37,446 nucleotides of DNA from Thermoplasmata archaeon (GTDB taxonomy: Archaea > Thermoplasmatota > Thermoplasmata > Halarchaeoplasmatales > Halarchaeoplasmataceae). Position numbers and translations under genes: made by a program. Each line of letters opens with the position of its first letter. Position 1 is the stretch's first letter. This document shows, in pieces, positions 6,076 to 35,320 of this stretch. The DNA lies in the NCBI GenBank assembly GCA_003553085.1, contig PUPH01000034.1, positions 1-37,446 of the forward strand, written 5' to 3'. The notes under the pieces are model-generated. The model did not search any database and was not told where the DNA came from. It saw only the letters and a program-made list of their open reading frames with translations.

Positions 6076-8061
6076 TCACCATACAAGGAACATCCGACCC
6101 ATTATAGCGACTCCGGACAGTACTGCGGTACATACTAGTAGGACAGTTCCCAATTTGAACTTGAATTCTACCGGATCGGATTGATATTTTATACCGACGG
6201 TGAAGTAGGTGATCACCGCACTCATGGTGAGTAGATAACCCACGACGACCATGGTGAAGTGGTCGGGAGCGATGGTGCTCTGGCCGGATATATCCATGAA
6301 GACACCGTGCAGCATGGAGTAAAGGGCCACGATTATCCCCATAACAACCGGGGCGAAGAACATGGAAGTCGCCTCCATCATCTCTACGGATTGAGAAAGT
6401 TCCGATCTGATATTGCTTTCCATCTCCTGCATATCCTTAAGGTATTCCGCATTCTGTAGGATGATCATACCTGCATCCTGGGGACTCTTCTTGGATGCAG
6501 ATATCACTGATTTCATACTTGCTTTAACCATCCGGGACGGATAGTGATCCAACAGTCCATCTCGCCCAAATAACACCATTTCCAATGGCATCCTCTGCAG
6601 CATCATCATGTTGGATATCTTTTTGAAAAGATCTCCCACTCGAGAACCCTTCATACTCTGACTCGTCTCCTCTATGGCTTTCTCCAAGGACTTACCTTCT
6701 GCCATCCTGCTCCCTAACTGGAATAAGGCATCAGGAAATTCTGTTTCAAGTTCGAGTATTTCTTTTCGCTTCTTTTTGGCGTCCCAAGGATCTTTTAACA
6801 GATAGTATGAAACACCTACCACAGGAGCCCATATCCATGCGAAGGGCATGAACATATCTAGCTGGGCTCTCAGTAGATAGATGACGATGGTACCGACCAA
6901 AGTGATGGAAAGTGGGACCCAATACGGCACTCTTACATCGGATCGGGTTTCCGGTAGCGAGGTGGTACCCGGTCTATTGATGAGTATCTTGTATGAATAA
7001 GCGAAGGCTCCCAGGGGGATGATCACATTCATCAGGAGTACCACGTGGGTAAGTGATAAGCCACCACCTTCAGCGGCGGTCTCTTGATATATGCTGGTCA
7101 TGTCTAAACCGCCTATGGTCAGCATAGGTAGCATAGCACCTATGATCAAGGGCAATAATATACCCAAAGCAAAGAGAACGGTGGTTGGTGTTCTTAAGGA
7201 GTTGGCAAAGTCTCGTATCTTCTGTTTTGTACCGGTGATGATTATATCGTTAGCCCTCTGTAAGGTCGCCTCCAGGCCCTCTTGTGTGTTCTCAAGGACA
7301 GAGGATCGTATGACATATAGGGCTCGTTTGAGATCATCGTTCCACTCCCCCCACTCGATGGCTAGATGCATCAGAGACTCCTCCAAGGAGCTTTTCTTCC
7401 TTAGATAGACGTGCCAAATCGTTCTGGAGAGGCCGGAAGACATGGGCTCTTCCACGTTCTCCGCAGAAAACAAGACGGCTTTATGGAGTGAGGGGGTGAC
7501 CCTCATCGACATGGTCAGATAGTTGATCGCCTCTGGTGCGGAACCGATCGTTTTAGCTTTCAATCTCTCAGCCAATATCTCTGGGTAGTTGGCTATGAAT
7601 ATCAATATGCACAGTGGAACACCTAATGACAATGGGATGATCCAGAGTAGAACATCGATCATATCGAGGCCTACGGTCAGATGAACAATTGATGTACCAA
7701 ATATCACCAGTAGAAACCCCAACAGTGCTCCGAAGACTGCAAACAGTAGTACCTCTTCCTCCTCTAGATCCATACCTACGAATTCAGCAGTTTTTTTGAA
7801 ATCTTCTTTTTTATAACTACGTTCGATGGTTCTGAAACTTTTCTCTGCTTTGGTCAGTTGTTTTTTAGCTCTGCCGTACTCATCGGAACCTTTACCATGT
7901 ATTATCATAGATTCGTTCAGTCGGTTCTTTGCAGCCTTTAATTCTCTCCTCCGTTTAAGATAATCTGATCGTTTGTCTTCCCTTTTCTCGATGATGTCTT
8001 TTCTCTCCGTACCGAATCGATCGTTTACAGCCCGACATAGTTTGTGATAAAGATCAGACAT
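6076..8061 (-). CDS. Type II/IV secretion (TadC/FlaJ/PilC-like) membrane platform protein with two T2SSF-like domains
   Basis: Multiple TM segments, two T2SSF-like repeats, overlaps the upstream secretion ATPase gene. Confidence 0.82.
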   Translation of the reverse strand: MSDLYHKLCRAVNDRFGTERKDIIEKREDKRSDYLKRRRELKAAKNRLNESMIIHGKGSDEYGRAKKQLTKAEKSFRTIERSYKKEDFKKTAEFVGMDLEEEEVLLFAVFGALLGFLLVIFGTSIVHLTVGLDMIDVLLWIIPLSLGVPLCILIFIANYPEILAERLKAKTIGSAPEAINYLTMSMRVTPSLHKAVLFSAENVEEPMSSGLSRTIWHVYLRKKSSLEESLMHLAIEWGEWNDDLKRALYVIRSSVLENTQEGLEATLQRANDIIITGTKQKIRDFANSLRTPTTVLFALGILLPLIIGAMLPMLTIGGLDMTSIYQETAAEGGGLSLTHVVLLMNVIIPLGAFAYSYKILINRPGTTSLPETRSDVRVPYWVPLSITLVGTIVIYLLRAQLDMFMPFAWIWAPVVGVSYYLLKDPWDAKKKRKEILELETEFPDALFQLGSRMAEGKSLEKAIEETSQSMKGSRVGDLFKKISNMMMLQRMPLEMVLFGRDGLLDHYPSRMVKASMKSVISASKKSPQDAGMIILQNAEYLKDMQEMESNIRSELSQSVEMMEATSMFFAPVVMGIIVALYSMLHGVFMDISGQSTIAPDHFTMVVVGYLLTMSAVITYFTVGIKYQSDPVEFKFKLGTVLLVCTAVLSGVAIMGRMFLVW

Positions 8062-9775
8062 ACTTAGTCCTCTTTTCGAACCATCCCATCCATTCTCTCT
8101 CTATGTCCTCATGTGTACCGGTGGAGTGATATTCTTCTACCAGATTCCAAAATCTGTCATTGGCCTCTGAAACCCATGCCGGACTTAAAAGCTCCATCCC
8201 CTTGGTTCTTGATTTTTCTACCATTTTTTCACGGATGGACGCTCGCAGATTGATATTCTCGATGGCCTGTTCATAACTCATGGACCATGAACGAGCTATG
8301 TGTCCCACGCGCTCAGAACTCCTTTTGAGTATGTCCGTGGCGTTCAATCCCTCATCGTAGAGCATCAGATCGGTGAATCGACCATCACCGTATTCAGACA
8401 CGTGTGTCAGCCGTCTTTCCCTTCTCTGTGTTCCTCCTGGTCGTACGACACCGGCTATCAAGACTACGTCAGTGGCAGAAAAGCTTTCCTCCGAGATGCC
8501 CATGTCGAATACCACCCTTTCATAAACCGATTCCGGTGAATCACCATGTATCGTACCCATGACCGCGCTTCCAGCGGTACCGGCACGCATCGCTTCGTAA
8601 AGGGTCTTGGCCTCCTTTCCCCTGACCTCTCCCAACACGATGGATGATTCACCCAGACGTAATGATACACGGAGTGCGTCGTCGGCGGTCATCTCGTTGT
8701 CTTCCAACAAAGACCCTACGGTTAAACTCTGTATATTATATCCCAACTGCTGCATCTGTCGGGAAGGGAGTTCACGAGTGTCCTCGATGGTGAGAATACG
8801 TTGACTCCTGGGAAACTCCATCATGAGTGCACTGAGTAGAGATGTTTTTCCCGCACCACGACTACCGGCCACCAACATGGTACTCCGACCGTCGACCAAG
8901 AATGAAAGCAAGCCTGCAGCCAGGGGAGTCAAACTACCCACCCGTATCAATTTGGGTAACGTCCATGGCTCTTTGCTCCTTCGCCTAAGCGCCAGGGCGA
9001 TACCGTCCTGACTCAGTGGTTTGCCGATGGCCGTAACACGTGTGTCGAACTCATACAGGTCGGTTTCAAGAACGGGGAATGCCTCGGAGAACGGTTTACC
9101 GCTCTCCGACCTGAACCTGGCCAGCATACTCTCAACTTCTTCTTCTGTCAGGAATATGTTCGTGCGACACCGATCTCGGATGTCCGGAACTCCGCCCAAT
9201 TCGATATAGACATTGTTATCCTCAGAAGGTGCGTCGATATATATGTCTTGAACGTTCGGATCCACCAATAATGTCTCCATGACACCATACCCGGCTGTGT
9301 ACTTTGCCAGAGTTTCCACTAGAAGTTCCAGGTTCTTATCGTGTTCTTCTCTATCGGCACCCAATTCTATACCCTTGTCCTGGGCGGTGTTGGTTATCAT
9401 ACGCTTACCTATCGACTCTATATACCTCTTGACGCCCAGGGCTGACGAAAAATCCGCAGTGCTTGTATAGTGGTCGGATAAATTGGATGTGACTTCGTTG
9501 AGGAGGAGATACTGCTCTTTATCGAAGGAATATTCCACCGGTTCTATGTGATAATAATCCTCTGTGGATTCATCATCACGGTAAAGGGCTACACGTGTAT
9601 GCTTTATGTCATACTCCACAACCTTTTTGAACGTTTCAGGTACCCTGAGGTTAACCCAGGTGTATGAGAAACTCGGGCGCAGCTCCTTATATTTTTCAGC
9701 TACCCGTGCTACACCATCGAAAAACCTGGAACCATCTATCCGACGAACCTTCTTCATGATCTCTGTATCTGTCAA
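8054..9775 (-). CDS. Type II/IV secretion system ATPase (TadA/VirB11/archaeal PilB family)
   Basis: Walker A VAGSRGAGKTSLL, ILTIEDTRELPS, SSIVLGEVRGKEAKTLYEAMRAGTAGSAVMGTIHGDSPESVYERV. Confidence 0.92.
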   Translation of the reverse strand: MTDTEIMKKVRRIDGSRFFDGVARVAEKYKELRPSFSYTWVNLRVPETFKKVVEYDIKHTRVALYRDDESTEDYYHIEPVEYSFDKEQYLLLNEVTSNLSDHYTSTADFSSALGVKRYIESIGKRMITNTAQDKGIELGADREEHDKNLELLVETLAKYTAGYGVMETLLVDPNVQDIYIDAPSEDNNVYIELGGVPDIRDRCRTNIFLTEEEVESMLARFRSESGKPFSEAFPVLETDLYEFDTRVTAIGKPLSQDGIALALRRRSKEPWTLPKLIRVGSLTPLAAGLLSFLVDGRSTMLVAGSRGAGKTSLLSALMMEFPRSQRILTIEDTRELPSRQMQQLGYNIQSLTVGSLLEDNEMTADDALRVSLRLGESSIVLGEVRGKEAKTLYEAMRAGTAGSAVMGTIHGDSPESVYERVVFDMGISEESFSATDVVLIAGVVRPGGTQRRERRLTHVSEYGDGRFTDLMLYDEGLNATDILKRSSERVGHIARSWSMSYEQAIENINLRASIREKMVEKSRTKGMELLSPAWVSEANDRFWNLVEEYHSTGTHEDIEREWMGWFEKRTKYV

Positions 9776-17243: not shown

Positions 17244-17303
17244 GAAAAAGTAGGAAAAATATTTATTTGATTGACATATAGTAAATGCATTGAAGGTGTT
17301 AGA

Positions 17304-19943
17304 ATGAATATTATAGGGCGTTATGAAAAGATGGTGTCTAAGAGACCGTGGGCTTTCATCACGGTCTTGGTTGTCATCACCCTGATCTTCTCCTTTTTTG
17401 CCTCACAGATGGAGATGAACTTTGGTGAGGATGATTTTCAACCGGATACGGAGGTTGCATTGGCCAACCGGAGGGTGAACGAGATATACGGGCGGGATGG
17501 AGAACAGATCACTCTGATATTCATCTCGGAAAACAATGTTTTGAGTAGTGATTCACTGGTGTATCAACTTGAATTCGAAGAAAAGATACTAGGATCAGAT
17601 TTTGATATGGACATGGTCGAAACTACACCCGAGAGTCCTCAAGGTTTTTCCTCTCCGGCAAGACTGATCGCTCAAACCAGATTCATCAGCGAATTGGTGG
17701 ATCTAAGCGAACAGTTCATAGGGCCTGATCAGGGTGATTTTTCAGAGATCCAGCAGGAGTTGAGTGAAAAAGTATTTACGCTGAATACTGAAGAGATGAA
17801 GACAATAATAGGAGGGGGCACACTCGAGGTCGACTTTTCCTTTGTTCCAGAGCCTATACCTGTAGAATTTGATCCCTTTGAGCCTGAAATGCTCGATGAG
17901 TTGTATGCAGATCCTTTCATATCAGAGATATTCCCTCTAGAAGATATCTTAGGATTTTTACTATCGAGTGATTACGACAGGATTAGCCATACCGCGAGTA
18001 AATCGTTGATGGCTATAGCGGTAAGAGGCGATATACCGGAGGATCGAGCATTAGAGTCGGAGAAAGAGATACAAAGGCTCACCCGTGAGTCTAGTCACGA
18101 TGAAGTGAGTGTGCGCATATTGGGTAACGCTTTGATCCAGGATGAGATCAACCAAGCCTCAGGCAGGAATATCGCTATCTTGATGCCGGCCGCGTTCATC
18201 TTCGTTATAGTGGTTTTAGGCTTGATGTATAGGAACATTACAGATACCGTTTTGAACCTACTCTCACTGATCATGGCGGTGATATGGGTTTACGGTGTAG
18301 GTGTTCTATTGGGTGTAAATCTGGGGAATCCCATGATGACCACTGTTCCCGTACTCATAATCGGTCTTGGTATAGATTATGGAATACACTATACATCCCG
18401 GTACCGTGAAGAGTTAAAAGAAGGAAAAAACGTGGGCCAGGCGATAACCTTGGCCGGAGCCACAGTGGGTTTTGCGATCCTACTCACAACGGTCACCACA
18501 ATAATCGGCTTCATGAGCAACATAACTTCTAACATCTCGGCGATCAGAGATTTCGGAATACTGTGTTCCGTGGGAATTCTGAGTGCGTTCATACTCATGT
18601 TGACCTTTTTCCCAGCCTCTAAGACCATAATAGATAATAGGAGAAAAAGGAAGGGTAAAGAGTTGGTGAAAGAGAAAAAAGCAAGGAAGAAATTGACCTT
18701 AGGAAAAAGGTTCTGGGCTAAGATCGGCGAACCAGAAACGTTCTGTGAATCCGATGTGAGCTGTGTCAACAACGGACTGGGTCTGGGTGCCATCGCTGCA
18801 AGGACTCCGGTTAGGGTACTCATCGTCGTTCTTCTTATCACCTCTGCTGCTGTTTACGGAGGGTTGCAGCTTGAAGCTAGATACGATTTCAGAGATTTTT
18901 TACCTTCGGACCTCGAGGTGACGGATACATTCAATATGTTCGTTGAAGATTTCGACTTCAGCCAGGAGACCGTATTTGTACTCGTAGAGGGCGACATAAC
19001 ACAGCCCAGTGTTTTCCAACGTACAGAAGAAGTACAAAATAGAGCTACGGAGAGTGATTATTATGTACCGGCTAGGAGTATAGAATCCCCTTATTCCCTA
19101 GCCATCTCCATGATCAATGAAAATTCTCCCAACTACAACAGTTCGTTCGCAGAGATATGGGATGCTAACATGCAGGATGATGTGAGTAGTGAGAACATAA
19201 TCGCGGTGTACGACGGTCTATACGAGTATGCTCCTGAAAGAGCTGCAAGAGTGATCTCAGAAGATTATGACGGATTCGTGATCAGGATACCTGTGGATAC
19301 TAGAGATGAAACTAGGGTGAAAGAAACGGAAGAGGATATGGTATGGGCGATGCAGCCCATGAAAGAAGAGGACCTGGATAGAGTGATAGTGACCGGAGGC
19401 CCGATAGTCAGTTTCTCTACGTTCGAATCCATCAACCAGGGGCAGATAGATACTTTATTGATCACCTTTGTGATAGCACTGATCATCCTAACTATACTTT
19501 ATAAATATCTGGGCAAAGGATACTCTCTGGGAGCCATCACGATCTTACCACTGGTCTTCGTTATAAGTTGGACGTTCGGAACCATGTATTACCTAAATAT
19601 TCCTTTGAATCCAGTTACAGTCACCATCGCAGCCATAACAGTCGGTCTCGGTATCGATTACAGCATACACATCACCCAGCGGTTCATAGAAGAAACGGAG
19701 CGCATCGATCAACCCCAATGTGCACTTTGTGTAGCCGCTAGTCATACTGGGAGTGCCCTGTTCGGATCAGCTACAACCACCATCGTGGGATTTGGGATAC
19801 TATCGCTAGCTATAATCCCACCTCTAGCTCAATTTGGACAGGTAAGCGCTATAAGCATATTCTATGCATTCCTTGCATCCGTATTCGTTTCGCCGACTTT
19901 CCTGTTACTTTGGTATAGATTTAGAAATAGATCTGAGGGCTAA
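17304..19943 (+). CDS. RND/MMPL family transporter (HAE3-like)
   Basis: Two SSD-like halves (VLIIGLGIDYGIHYTSRYREE and AITVGLGIDYSIHITQRFIEE). ATG 17304 preferred to TTG 17271. Confidence 0.9.
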   Translation: MNIIGRYEKMVSKRPWAFITVLVVITLIFSFFASQMEMNFGEDDFQPDTEVALANRRVNEIYGRDGEQITLIFISENNVLSSDSLVYQLEFEEKILGSDFDMDMVETTPESPQGFSSPARLIAQTRFISELVDLSEQFIGPDQGDFSEIQQELSEKVFTLNTEEMKTIIGGGTLEVDFSFVPEPIPVEFDPFEPEMLDELYADPFISEIFPLEDILGFLLSSDYDRISHTASKSLMAIAVRGDIPEDRALESEKEIQRLTRESSHDEVSVRILGNALIQDEINQASGRNIAILMPAAFIFVIVVLGLMYRNITDTVLNLLSLIMAVIWVYGVGVLLGVNLGNPMMTTVPVLIIGLGIDYGIHYTSRYREELKEGKNVGQAITLAGATVGFAILLTTVTTIIGFMSNITSNISAIRDFGILCSVGILSAFILMLTFFPASKTIIDNRRKRKGKELVKEKKARKKLTLGKRFWAKIGEPETFCESDVSCVNNGLGLGAIAARTPVRVLIVVLLITSAAVYGGLQLEARYDFRDFLPSDLEVTDTFNMFVEDFDFSQETVFVLVEGDITQPSVFQRTEEVQNRATESDYYVPARSIESPYSLAISMINENSPNYNSSFAEIWDANMQDDVSSENIIAVYDGLYEYAPERAARVISEDYDGFVIRIPVDTRDETRVKETEEDMVWAMQPMKEEDLDRVIVTGGPIVSFSTFESINQGQIDTLLITFVIALIILTILYKYLGKGYSLGAITILPLVFVISWTFGTMYYLNIPLNPVTVTIAAITVGLGIDYSIHITQRFIEETERIDQPQCALCVAASHTGSALFGSATTTIVGFGILSLAIIPPLAQFGQVSAISIFYAFLASVFVSPTFLLLWYRFRNRSEG

Positions 19944-32065: not shown

Positions 32066-32090
32066 CCTAATCTTTATATCGGGATAATGA

Positions 32091-33332
32091 ATGATGGGTT
32101 CGTCGTTTGAGATCGATGAAACCATGAATAAAGAGGAACTTTTCAAGCTACTTGGAGCCGTAGCGGCTTTCGCCTCGGTGACGTTCTTGATCGATGAGTA
32201 TATGATCAGTATCATTCCGAAATACCGGATCCCCGTTCTCAACGACATACTGGTATTTTTCGAGATTTTGAGCGTTTCGGTGATATGTACCATCCTCCTA
32301 TGTATCATACTTGGGATAGCTTTTTGGAAAAAGAACGAAGAACGGTGGCTTCCTTTTCTTTTTTTATCCATAGGTCTGAGTGCGGTGGTAGCCATAGGTA
32401 TCCAGCATCTTTTCGCGAGACCACGGCCAGAGGATATAGGGCTGGTAGGTGTAACACTACGACTATGGAGATACTCATTCCCCAGCGGTCACACCGCAGT
32501 GGCTTTTTCCGCAGTACCTATCTTACTTAAGGTACTTCCTAAATTCAAACTCCTATGGTTTGGATTTGCAACTACCGTGGCAATATCTAGGGTGTATTTA
32601 GGTGCCCATTACATCAGCGATGTCATCTTCGGTGCCATCATCGGATATCTCATCGGGATGTCTATGTTGAATTACGAGGTGGCCGTTAAAGACCGAGAAG
32701 TGCGAAGACAGCTATTTCATGCCGCTATGGGGGTCTTCCTCGTCATATCGATCTACAGAGGTTTTTTCGATCAGATCGGTTCATACCCACCTCTGAGTTC
32801 ACTTTATTTTATACCCGCGACCTCCAGAACTATCCTATCGATCCTCATGATCGGTGCTGTCTTGATATACACATCCATGAAGATGGACATACCGATAATA
32901 TCGTGGTTTTTGGACCACTTTGAAAGACCGAGATTGAGGGAAGATTTTCCCGGCAAAGGTTGTTTTTTCTTCTTTGTAGGTGCCTTTATCATCTCACTTA
33001 TCTTCGATAATAGTATAGTCGCCGCGTCATTACTCATACTTGCCATCGGTGACTCAACCTCCCACTTGATCGGTGCTAGATTCGGTAAAATTAAACATCC
33101 ATTTAGCCGTGACAAAAATATCGAGGGTAACATCGCGGGGGCTCTGTTGAGCGGTTTGTTAGTCTCGATCATACTCCATCCCGTTATCGCTTTCACCACC
33201 TCATTTATCGTGATGTTCGTGGAAGGCATATACTTCACAGGGATATTTGAAAAATTGAACGAGGATAATCTCACCATACCCATATTATCTGCGGTACTGA
33301 TCTTTATTCTCGATCATCTGATCGCCATATGA
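32091..33332 (+). CDS. PAP2 phosphatase fused to dolichol/diacylglycerol kinase-like (CTP-dependent) membrane domain
   Basis: PAP2 motifs FARPRPED, FPSGHTA, SRVYLGAHYISD; C-terminal VRRQLFHAAMG ... AIGDSTSHLIGARFGKIKHPFSRDKNIEGNIAG. Confidence 0.85.
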   Translation: MMGSSFEIDETMNKEELFKLLGAVAAFASVTFLIDEYMISIIPKYRIPVLNDILVFFEILSVSVICTILLCIILGIAFWKKNEERWLPFLFLSIGLSAVVAIGIQHLFARPRPEDIGLVGVTLRLWRYSFPSGHTAVAFSAVPILLKVLPKFKLLWFGFATTVAISRVYLGAHYISDVIFGAIIGYLIGMSMLNYEVAVKDREVRRQLFHAAMGVFLVISIYRGFFDQIGSYPPLSSLYFIPATSRTILSILMIGAVLIYTSMKMDIPIISWFLDHFERPRLREDFPGKGCFFFFVGAFIISLIFDNSIVAASLLILAIGDSTSHLIGARFGKIKHPFSRDKNIEGNIAGALLSGLLVSIILHPVIAFTTSFIVMFVEGIYFTGIFEKLNEDNLTIPILSAVLIFILDHLIAI

Positions 33333-34060: not shown

Positions 34061-35320
34061 ATGGAGACACACGGTAAACCAAACAACATAATCCTGATAA
34101 CCATCGATTCTCTGCGGTGGGATACTCTGCCCAAGATGCCCGAGTTATGGTCTATGGCCAAGGAGAACGCTTACTTCACCAGAGCATACACCAACGGTCC
34201 ATCGACTCCGTTCTCTTTTCCCAGTATATTCAGTCTTAACTACGATCCCATGAAAGAAAGGATCAGGATAAGAGAACCCACCCTTGCAGGATACCTGAGG
34301 GGTAAAGGATATCGCACAGCGGGTATCGTAGCCAGTAATCCATATATTTCTTCACTCTCAGGATATCAGAATGGTTTTGATCACTTCAACGACCACATCA
34401 GCACTGCTGGAAGGGAAGTAAAAGGAGAATTATGGAGATATCTGCAGAGGCTTCCTGACTGCGTTCAAAATCTTAGAGACATACACCGTTGGTACTTCAA
34501 GCAGGATGTAACATCTTCTTTGAGCGCTGAGGTGGTCACCGAGGAATCGATAGATCTTATATCTACATCCAGACGACCTTTTTTCATCTGGATACATTAT
34601 ATGGATACCCATTACCCATACACACCTCCGAGAGAATATTCAGAATATTCTATATCTGAGATAGCTGAATTGAATAACTTTAGAAAAAAAAGAGAAGCAG
34701 ATGATTCAAAGGAGACAAGGATGCAGGTCGAGCGTCTGAAAGTACTTTATGAGGACTCCGCAAGGTGGTTAGATGAGAAACTATCAGATCTGTTCGCATA
34801 CCTTGAGCAGAGTGGCCTTTGGGAGAACACTGATATGCTCGTAACTTCAGATCACGGAGAGGGATTCGGTGAGCATGGTTTTCTAGGCCATCCGTCTCAA
34901 CTGTACCAGGAGGTGGTGAAGATCCCTCTGGTCGTGAAAAAAGAAGGGCTCTTTGGAAAACATGATGAACTTGTGGAAACCCGCGATATACCATCCATGC
35001 TCTCCTATTCTGGTTGCGAAATTGATAAAACAGGAGACAAGGGGATCATACCGCTCAGAGCTAGACATGCCGGTGGAAGAAGCTGCATGAGGAAGGGGAT
35101 CAATCTGATAAGCGATCCTGAAAGTCTTGATTACGGCATCTGGGGTTTTGCTACAGAGAAGTACAAATTCATCTTCGATGAGGAACGGGATGAAGTTGAG
35201 CTTTACGACCTGGAAACAGATCCAGGAGAAAAAAAGGACATATCTATGGTTGAAGATGCGGTTGTATCAAAGTTTTTAAAGATGATTCTAGGATCTGGAG
35301 CTTTTTCATCTGGAAAATGA
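34061..35320 (+). CDS. Sulfatase-fold (alkaline phosphatase superfamily) hydrolase
   Basis: NIILITIDSLRWDTL, FIWIHYMDTHYPYTPP, LVTSDHGEGFGEHGFLGHPSQLYQEVVKIPLVV, ELYDLETDPGEKKD. Confidence 0.9.
   Translation: METHGKPNNIILITIDSLRWDTLPKMPELWSMAKENAYFTRAYTNGPSTPFSFPSIFSLNYDPMKERIRIREPTLAGYLRGKGYRTAGIVASNPYISSLSGYQNGFDHFNDHISTAGREVKGELWRYLQRLPDCVQNLRDIHRWYFKQDVTSSLSAEVVTEESIDLISTSRRPFFIWIHYMDTHYPYTPPREYSEYSISEIAELNNFRKKREADDSKETRMQVERLKVLYEDSARWLDEKLSDLFAYLEQSGLWENTDMLVTSDHGEGFGEHGFLGHPSQLYQEVVKIPLVVKKEGLFGKHDELVETRDIPSMLSYSGCEIDKTGDKGIIPLRARHAGGRSCMRKGINLISDPESLDYGIWGFATEKYKFIFDEERDEVELYDLETDPGEKKDISMVEDAVVSKFLKMILGSGAFSSGK

Follow-up and report, generated by a model that had tools for sequence, protein, structure and literature searches.

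In the eukaryotic route, dolichyl phosphate (DolP) is dephosphorylated on the lumenal face, free dolichol diffuses back, and a CTP-dependent kinase restores DolP (PMC11542857). Several steps of archaeal dolichyl phosphate metabolism are marked as unknown (PMC5088576). PAP2-type phosphatases also occur in fusion proteins, and PAP2-DUF368, DUF368-BacA and DedA-PAP2 fusions pointed to DUF368 and DedA as carrier translocases (PMC9876793), while fusions of a lipid phosphatase with a lipid kinase are annotated in actinobacteria (PMC12016549). Here we describe a protein encoded on a 37,446-nucleotide stretch of Thermoplasmata DNA (the window), in which a PAP2 phosphatase is joined to a COG0170/SEC59-type kinase. 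Fusions of a lipid phosphatase with a non-homologous kinase had already been annotated; what is new here is that the PAP2-COG0170 fusion is recurrent and backed by a conserved gene pair. Within the open-access literature, we found no paper on a PAP2-COG0170/dolichol kinase fusion or gene pair.

The MAG that the window comes from is 84% complete, and the window lies on its contig C174. An amidohydrolase gene on this contig has relatives of 65-66% identity in other genomes of the window's family, and the contig therefore belongs to that family. Two named relatives (L061, L062) are the 'Thermoplasmata archaeon' MAGs B1Sed10_191R1 and T1Sed10_119m; B1Sed10 and T1Sed are the datasets of high salinity in a survey of soda-lake sediments (PMC6146748). 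The fusion frame (32091-33332, + strand) is open, complete and uninterrupted. Since the orthologues have their first residue where the 413-aa frame has Met12, 32124 is a likelier start than 32091, and residues are numbered below from the Met at 32124 (402-aa numbering). The features are as follows:

32073-32079, + strand: possible archaeal TATA box TTTATAT, some 50 bp upstream of the likely start, with a count in the window not above chance
32091-33332, + strand: fusion frame of PAP2 and putative polyprenol kinase, 413 aa, stop included, first 11 codons probably untranslated
32124-33332, + strand: likely true coding sequence, 402 aa, from the starts of the homologues L002 and L003 and of most DPANN fusions
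32358-32672, + strand: PAP2 phosphatase domain, from Pfam PF01569 (E 2.1e-19) and kin among PDB sequences and in Foldseek
32403-32429, + strand: PAP2 motif 1, Q94-HLFARP-RP, with Gln aligned to the position of the catalytic Lys
32481-32492, + strand: PAP2 motif 2, PSGH, residues 120-123, with His123 as general acid
32586-32621, + strand: PAP2 motif 3, SRVYLGAHYISD, residues 155-166, with Arg156, nucleophile His162 and Asp166
32694-33326, + strand: predicted COG0170/SEC59-type CTP-dependent lipid kinase domain, from profile-profile comparison, family profile and AF2 model
32703-32720, + strand: kinase RRQLFH motif with invariant Arg195 and His199, counterpart of the RK..H clamp
32919-32960, + strand: conserved kinase loop FERPRLREDFPGKG, from the alignment, predicted cytoplasmic
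33048-33128, + strand: kinase core GDSTSHLIGARFGK...KNIEG, with Asp310, Gly317, Gly321, Lys331, Glu334 and Gly335
33222-33281, + strand: kinase Glu367 and EDNLTIP, with Asp381, Asn382 and Pro386

The initial annotation had read both domains as one polypeptide, and full-length orthologues of the same architecture (82% and 49% identity to the window protein) confirm this; the fusion is thus neither a chance frame nor an assembly join. The source MAG is fragmented (184 contigs), which might suggest an artefact or a pseudogene, but the identical architecture recurs in independent MAGs and in Nanoarchaeota, the frame is open, and residues of both halves are invariant among the fusions. The orthologues rule this explanation out, and we give it practically no weight.

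The PAP2 half was recognized directly by Pfam, with a match over residues 79-183 (aa 90-194 of the 413-aa frame) that scored 70 bits (E 2.1e-19) against a curated PF01569 cut-off of 27.2 bits. By sequence, its nearest PDB kin are LpxE (6ebu, E 2e-12) and the PgpB-type enzyme of B. subtilis (5jki, E 2e-8), and Foldseek also retrieved 5jki (E 2.5e-4). All three PAP2 motifs had been claimed for this half. Motif 2 (PSGH) and motif 3 (SRxxxxxHxxxD) are indeed complete, but motif 1 (KxxxxxxRP) reads QHLFARPRP, with Arg and Pro kept and Gln94 in place of Lys. PAP2 membership therefore rests on the profile and on motifs 2 and 3, and full catalytic competence is in doubt: without the motif-1 Lys, the phosphatase could be less active. 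Gln94 is present in 3/3 full-length Thermoplasmata fusions, whereas Lys is present in 8/8 DPANN fusions and in 51/51 paired PAP2s. This contrast (3/3 vs 59/59), together with the variable N-terminal domains often found on dolichol kinases (PMC11542857), could mean that the PAP2 half of the Thermoplasmata fusions is catalytically crippled and that, at the N-terminus of what is functionally a kinase only, it binds lipid or lends stability. We consider this unlikely, given that RP, PSGH and SR...H...D are retained, nucleophile His included, and that 2 of the 26 solo PAP2s also have Ser for Lys with most other catalytic residues kept. In these two solo PAP2s of the class (L013, L029), the motif reads SAIYYHPRPF, so the motif-1 Lys is not universal among archaeal PAP2s.

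The kinase half was reached by a less direct way. Alone, it had no match in Pfam or NCBIfam, and the half or its profile gave chance GPCR matches or none against PDB sequences, so that the domain search proposed at the outset succeeded directly for PAP2 and only through the profiles of relatives for the kinase. Specifically, PF01148 (CTP_transf_1) was matched by 4/7 close-family members (best E 2.6e-4), and a profile built from three orthologues retrieved stand-alone proteins of ~200 aa in the phylum. Profile-profile comparison of the C-terminal half with 15 archaeal and bacterial COG0170-type kinases, some of which match PF01148 (best 9.4e-9), gave E 3.8e-42, and the profile of this kinase family recovered the window domain in a whole-genome search at E 1.1e-35. 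These two matches bear out the dolichol-kinase-like assignment and place the C-terminal half inside the family. The core residues RR..H, GD, G...G, K..EG, E and DN are all present; the RK..H clamp has been described (PMC10849223). An AlphaFold (AF2) model of the kinase half alone was confident (pLDDT 94.9, pTM 0.90), and its best PDB match, which was weak, was CdsA (4q2g; E 0.24, prob 0.72, TM 0.35), an expected distant relative.

We aligned 11 fusions from two phyla (3 full-length from Thermoplasmata and 8 from DPANN). In the PAP2 half, Arg101, Ser121, His123, Arg156, His162 and Asp166 are invariant in 11/11, and the same holds in the kinase half for Glu192, Arg195, His199, Asp310, Ser313, Gly317, Gly321, Lys331, Glu334, Gly335, Glu367, Asp381, Asn382 and Pro386. 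A loss of catalytic residues, which would have counted against the initial annotation, is thus confined to the PAP2 motif-1 Lys. Since identity to the window protein falls to 27% among these fusions while the catalytic residues stay invariant (except for Lys to Gln in three), both halves are under selection.

In a set of 300 genomes from the class, only the window's family has the fusion (G000, G030 and G071, with a contig-end fragment in G100). Two full orthologues of the window fusion and the fragment thus come from this one Thermoplasmata family, most members of which are without a copy. Fusions were also found in two Woesearchaeota of the named genome collection, and Nanoarchaeota/Woesearchaeota hold at least eight in total, in the order PAP2 then kinase. 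The survey thus shows a recurrent architecture in the two groups and not a one-off. Viral contigs yielded no relatives, and plasmids yielded PAP2-half matches but no fusion.

The conserved gene pair behind the fusion is of more interest than the window fusion itself. The kinase subfamily is present in 180/371 genomes of the Nanoarchaeota/Woesearchaeota phylum, from which we took 128 kinase loci, including 8 fusions and 119 stand-alone genes with enough upstream sequence. A PAP2 gene lies directly upstream on the same strand at 51/119 stand-alone loci (Nanoarchaeota), and its stop falls anywhere from 11 bp within the kinase domain to 69 bp ahead of it. From the few PAP2 genes per genome, we estimate that PAP2 would be a random neighbour at well under 1% of loci. 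Divergence in one half also tracks divergence in the other (Mantel r 0.59, 0/2000 permutations), a correlation that still includes shared organism history. PAP2 and kinase are therefore a conserved, operon-like gene pair that is common in Nanoarchaeota, and the window protein is its fused form. One lone kinase frame (L115, in G825) contains a long internal X run, which is a masked stretch or an assembly gap.

In the kinase tree, the fusions are scattered over several places, and forcing them all into one clade was rejected (p-AU 0.006), and with it a single origin. There, L098 is sister to the Thermoplasmata fusions (support 100/96); this kinase from DPANN has a PAP2 of its own upstream. In the PAP2 tree, the Thermoplasmata fusions group with the PAP2s of the L065 and L076 pairs (SH-aLRT 93) and lie away from the solo PAP2s found in the class. 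As the two trees disagree on the exact DPANN neighbour, we name no donor. With both window halves placed among DPANN pairs and a single origin rejected, the phylogenies indicate a conserved pair that has been fused more than once. The fusion gene shows no synteny across the three Thermoplasmata genomes, where its surroundings differ. The simplest reading of trees, surroundings and patchy presence is that the window fusion was probably acquired horizontally from a DPANN-type pair.

The helices of the model and charge counts support a predicted topology, which we infer from these two sources, with the PAP2 motifs outside and the three conserved kinase loops inside. Lys/Arg counts in predicted cytoplasmic versus outer loops are 18:7 overall and 11:1 for the kinase loops alone. 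Structure prediction, suggested in the initial annotation, thus agrees with active sites on opposite faces. In this regard, we favour, with somewhat less than even confidence, a bifunctional polytopic membrane enzyme that would recycle an isoprenoid lipid carrier (dolichyl or polyprenyl phosphate) of surface glycosylation. The N-terminal six-helix PAP2 phosphatase, its active site toward the outside, would strip spent polyprenyl (pyro)phosphate on the outer leaflet; the neutral polyprenyl alcohol would flip across the membrane; and the C-terminal seven-helix COG0170-type kinase, its CTP site toward the cytoplasm, would re-phosphorylate the alcohol with CTP on the inner leaflet. Both activities and this direction of flux are predictions from the domain families and the topology. 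Since PAP2 fusions to the translocases DUF368 and DedA are on record (PMC9876793), a pair of PAP2 and kinase is in line with a pattern already described.

The initial annotation had offered polyprenyl-phosphate recycling or a set-point module, and the first of these gains support from the gene pair and the repeated fusion. As a set-point device, phosphatase and kinase would act on one lipid pool and tune its phosphorylated/free ratio, in keeping with the opposing activities predicted within one chain. The predicted sites on opposite faces, however, favour cross-membrane recycling; moreover, no regulatory domain was seen, and a futile cycle would waste CTP, which makes the device highly improbable.

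Polyprenol is the substrate that we infer for the fusion. cis-Prenyltransferase, the maker of the polyprenyl carrier, was detected in 29/30 pair or fusion genomes, 14/30 lone-kinase genomes and 14/20 kinase-free genomes. The contrast of 29/30 with 14/30 (Fisher p 2e-5) leaves one supported independent contrast after correction for relatedness, so that the association with the pair, strong in the raw counts, then lacks support. The genome that carries the window, 84% complete, yielded no cis-prenyltransferase, though one is present in 9/9 genomes of the family that are 90% complete or more. STT3 occurs in almost all genomes, does not differ between pair and lone-kinase genomes, and is therefore uninformative.

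COG0170 relatives also include phytol, farnesol/geranylgeraniol and diacylglycerol kinases. The protein could accordingly salvage or remodel other isoprenoid lipids, with PAP2 taking phosphate off short prenyl phosphates or off archaeal analogues of phosphatidate, and the kinase phosphorylating a C20 prenol or archaeol anew, much like plant phytol/farnesol salvage; in DPANN, the protein could import lipids of the host. That range of relatives (PMC10849223) and the fusion of the kinase relative L037 to DUF92 speak for salvage, and so do the 16/30 lone-kinase genomes without detectable cis-prenyltransferase, by which the kinase subfamily has no fixed link to dolichol. Genomes with a linked PAP2, on the other hand, nearly all have cis-prenyltransferase (29/30), and we regard salvage as possible but rather unlikely. 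In L037 (positions 1099-2670; Thermoplasmatota, G316), the same kinase family is joined to DUF92 (PF01940, E 2e-35), which we take to be the VTE6-type prenyl-phosphate kinase family, and the protein is a probable two-step kinase from prenol to prenyl diphosphate in one chain.

The fusion is an accessory and not the sole recycling route, since the host genome also encodes PAP2, kinase and DUF368 in genes apart from it; most members of the window's family likewise have a separate kinase and PAP2. Absence of DUF368 carrier transporters as the reason for the fusion was rejected, as they occur in 16/16 genomes of the family.

More broadly, and doubtfully, the PAP2-kinase pair may be a general DPANN-centred archaeal module that returns the glycosylation carrier across the membrane with no need for a phospho-lipid translocase, and the neutral lipid might even cross through the fused protein itself. 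If so, dephosphorylation outside and re-phosphorylation inside would be the recycling step so far unassigned for dolichyl phosphate in archaea. Phosphatase and kinase, side by side or fused, offer a concrete two-enzyme candidate for outer-face recycling of dolichyl phosphate after protein glycosylation, and the fusion proteins are single-chain constructs for direct tests of sidedness, substrate and net lipid transport.

Elsewhere in the window, 17271-19943 encodes an RND transporter of the MMPL/Patched type that gave a sterol-sensing-like match. The region 6076-9775 holds a T2SSE-type ATPase (8054-9775), then a 661-aa protein without a Pfam match; the two are probably the ATPase of an archaeal pilus/secretion system and the membrane protein that partners it. 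The fusion is followed downstream by a DJ-1/PfpI protein and then by a Sulfatase/AlkP-superfamily protein (34061-35320), and the gene of the latter is not conserved beside the fusion in relatives.

Compared with known systems, the window protein shares with dolichol kinase and other COG0170 enzymes (SEC59, DOLK; VTE5/FOLK, PfPolK) the C-terminal core RR..H, GD...G...G, K..EG, E, DDN..P, the single-domain size and the cytoplasmic conserved loops (predicted here). Unlike them, it has an N-terminal PAP2 phosphatase and belongs to a divergent archaeal subfamily with GDSxSH for the usual GDxxA, which PF01148 misses in the window protein. With the PAP2 lipid phosphatases LpxE, PgpB and YodM it shares the fold, motifs 2 and 3 and a predicted outer-face site, but its motif-1 Lys is Gln and it is fused to a kinase. 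The kinase of MamU-type proteins is presumably of the soluble DAGK_cat/YegS type, non-homologous to the polytopic kinase and set apart here by annotation. Such actinobacterial PAP2/diacylglycerol kinase proteins (Streptomyces MamU, PMC12016549) likewise hold a lipid phosphatase and a lipid kinase in one chain. The PAP2-DUF368, DUF368-BacA and DedA-PAP2 fusions (PMC9876793) are alike in that PAP2, where present, is joined to another carrier-recycling step, but the partner in the window protein is a predicted CTP-dependent kinase and not a translocase. The eukaryotic DolPP phosphatase (CWH8/DOLPP1, PAP2 type) and dolichol kinase follow the same carrier logic, with a lumenal phosphatase and a cytosolic kinase. 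To the best of our knowledge, their genes are not adjacent; the two are separate proteins there, whereas in the window they form one chain.
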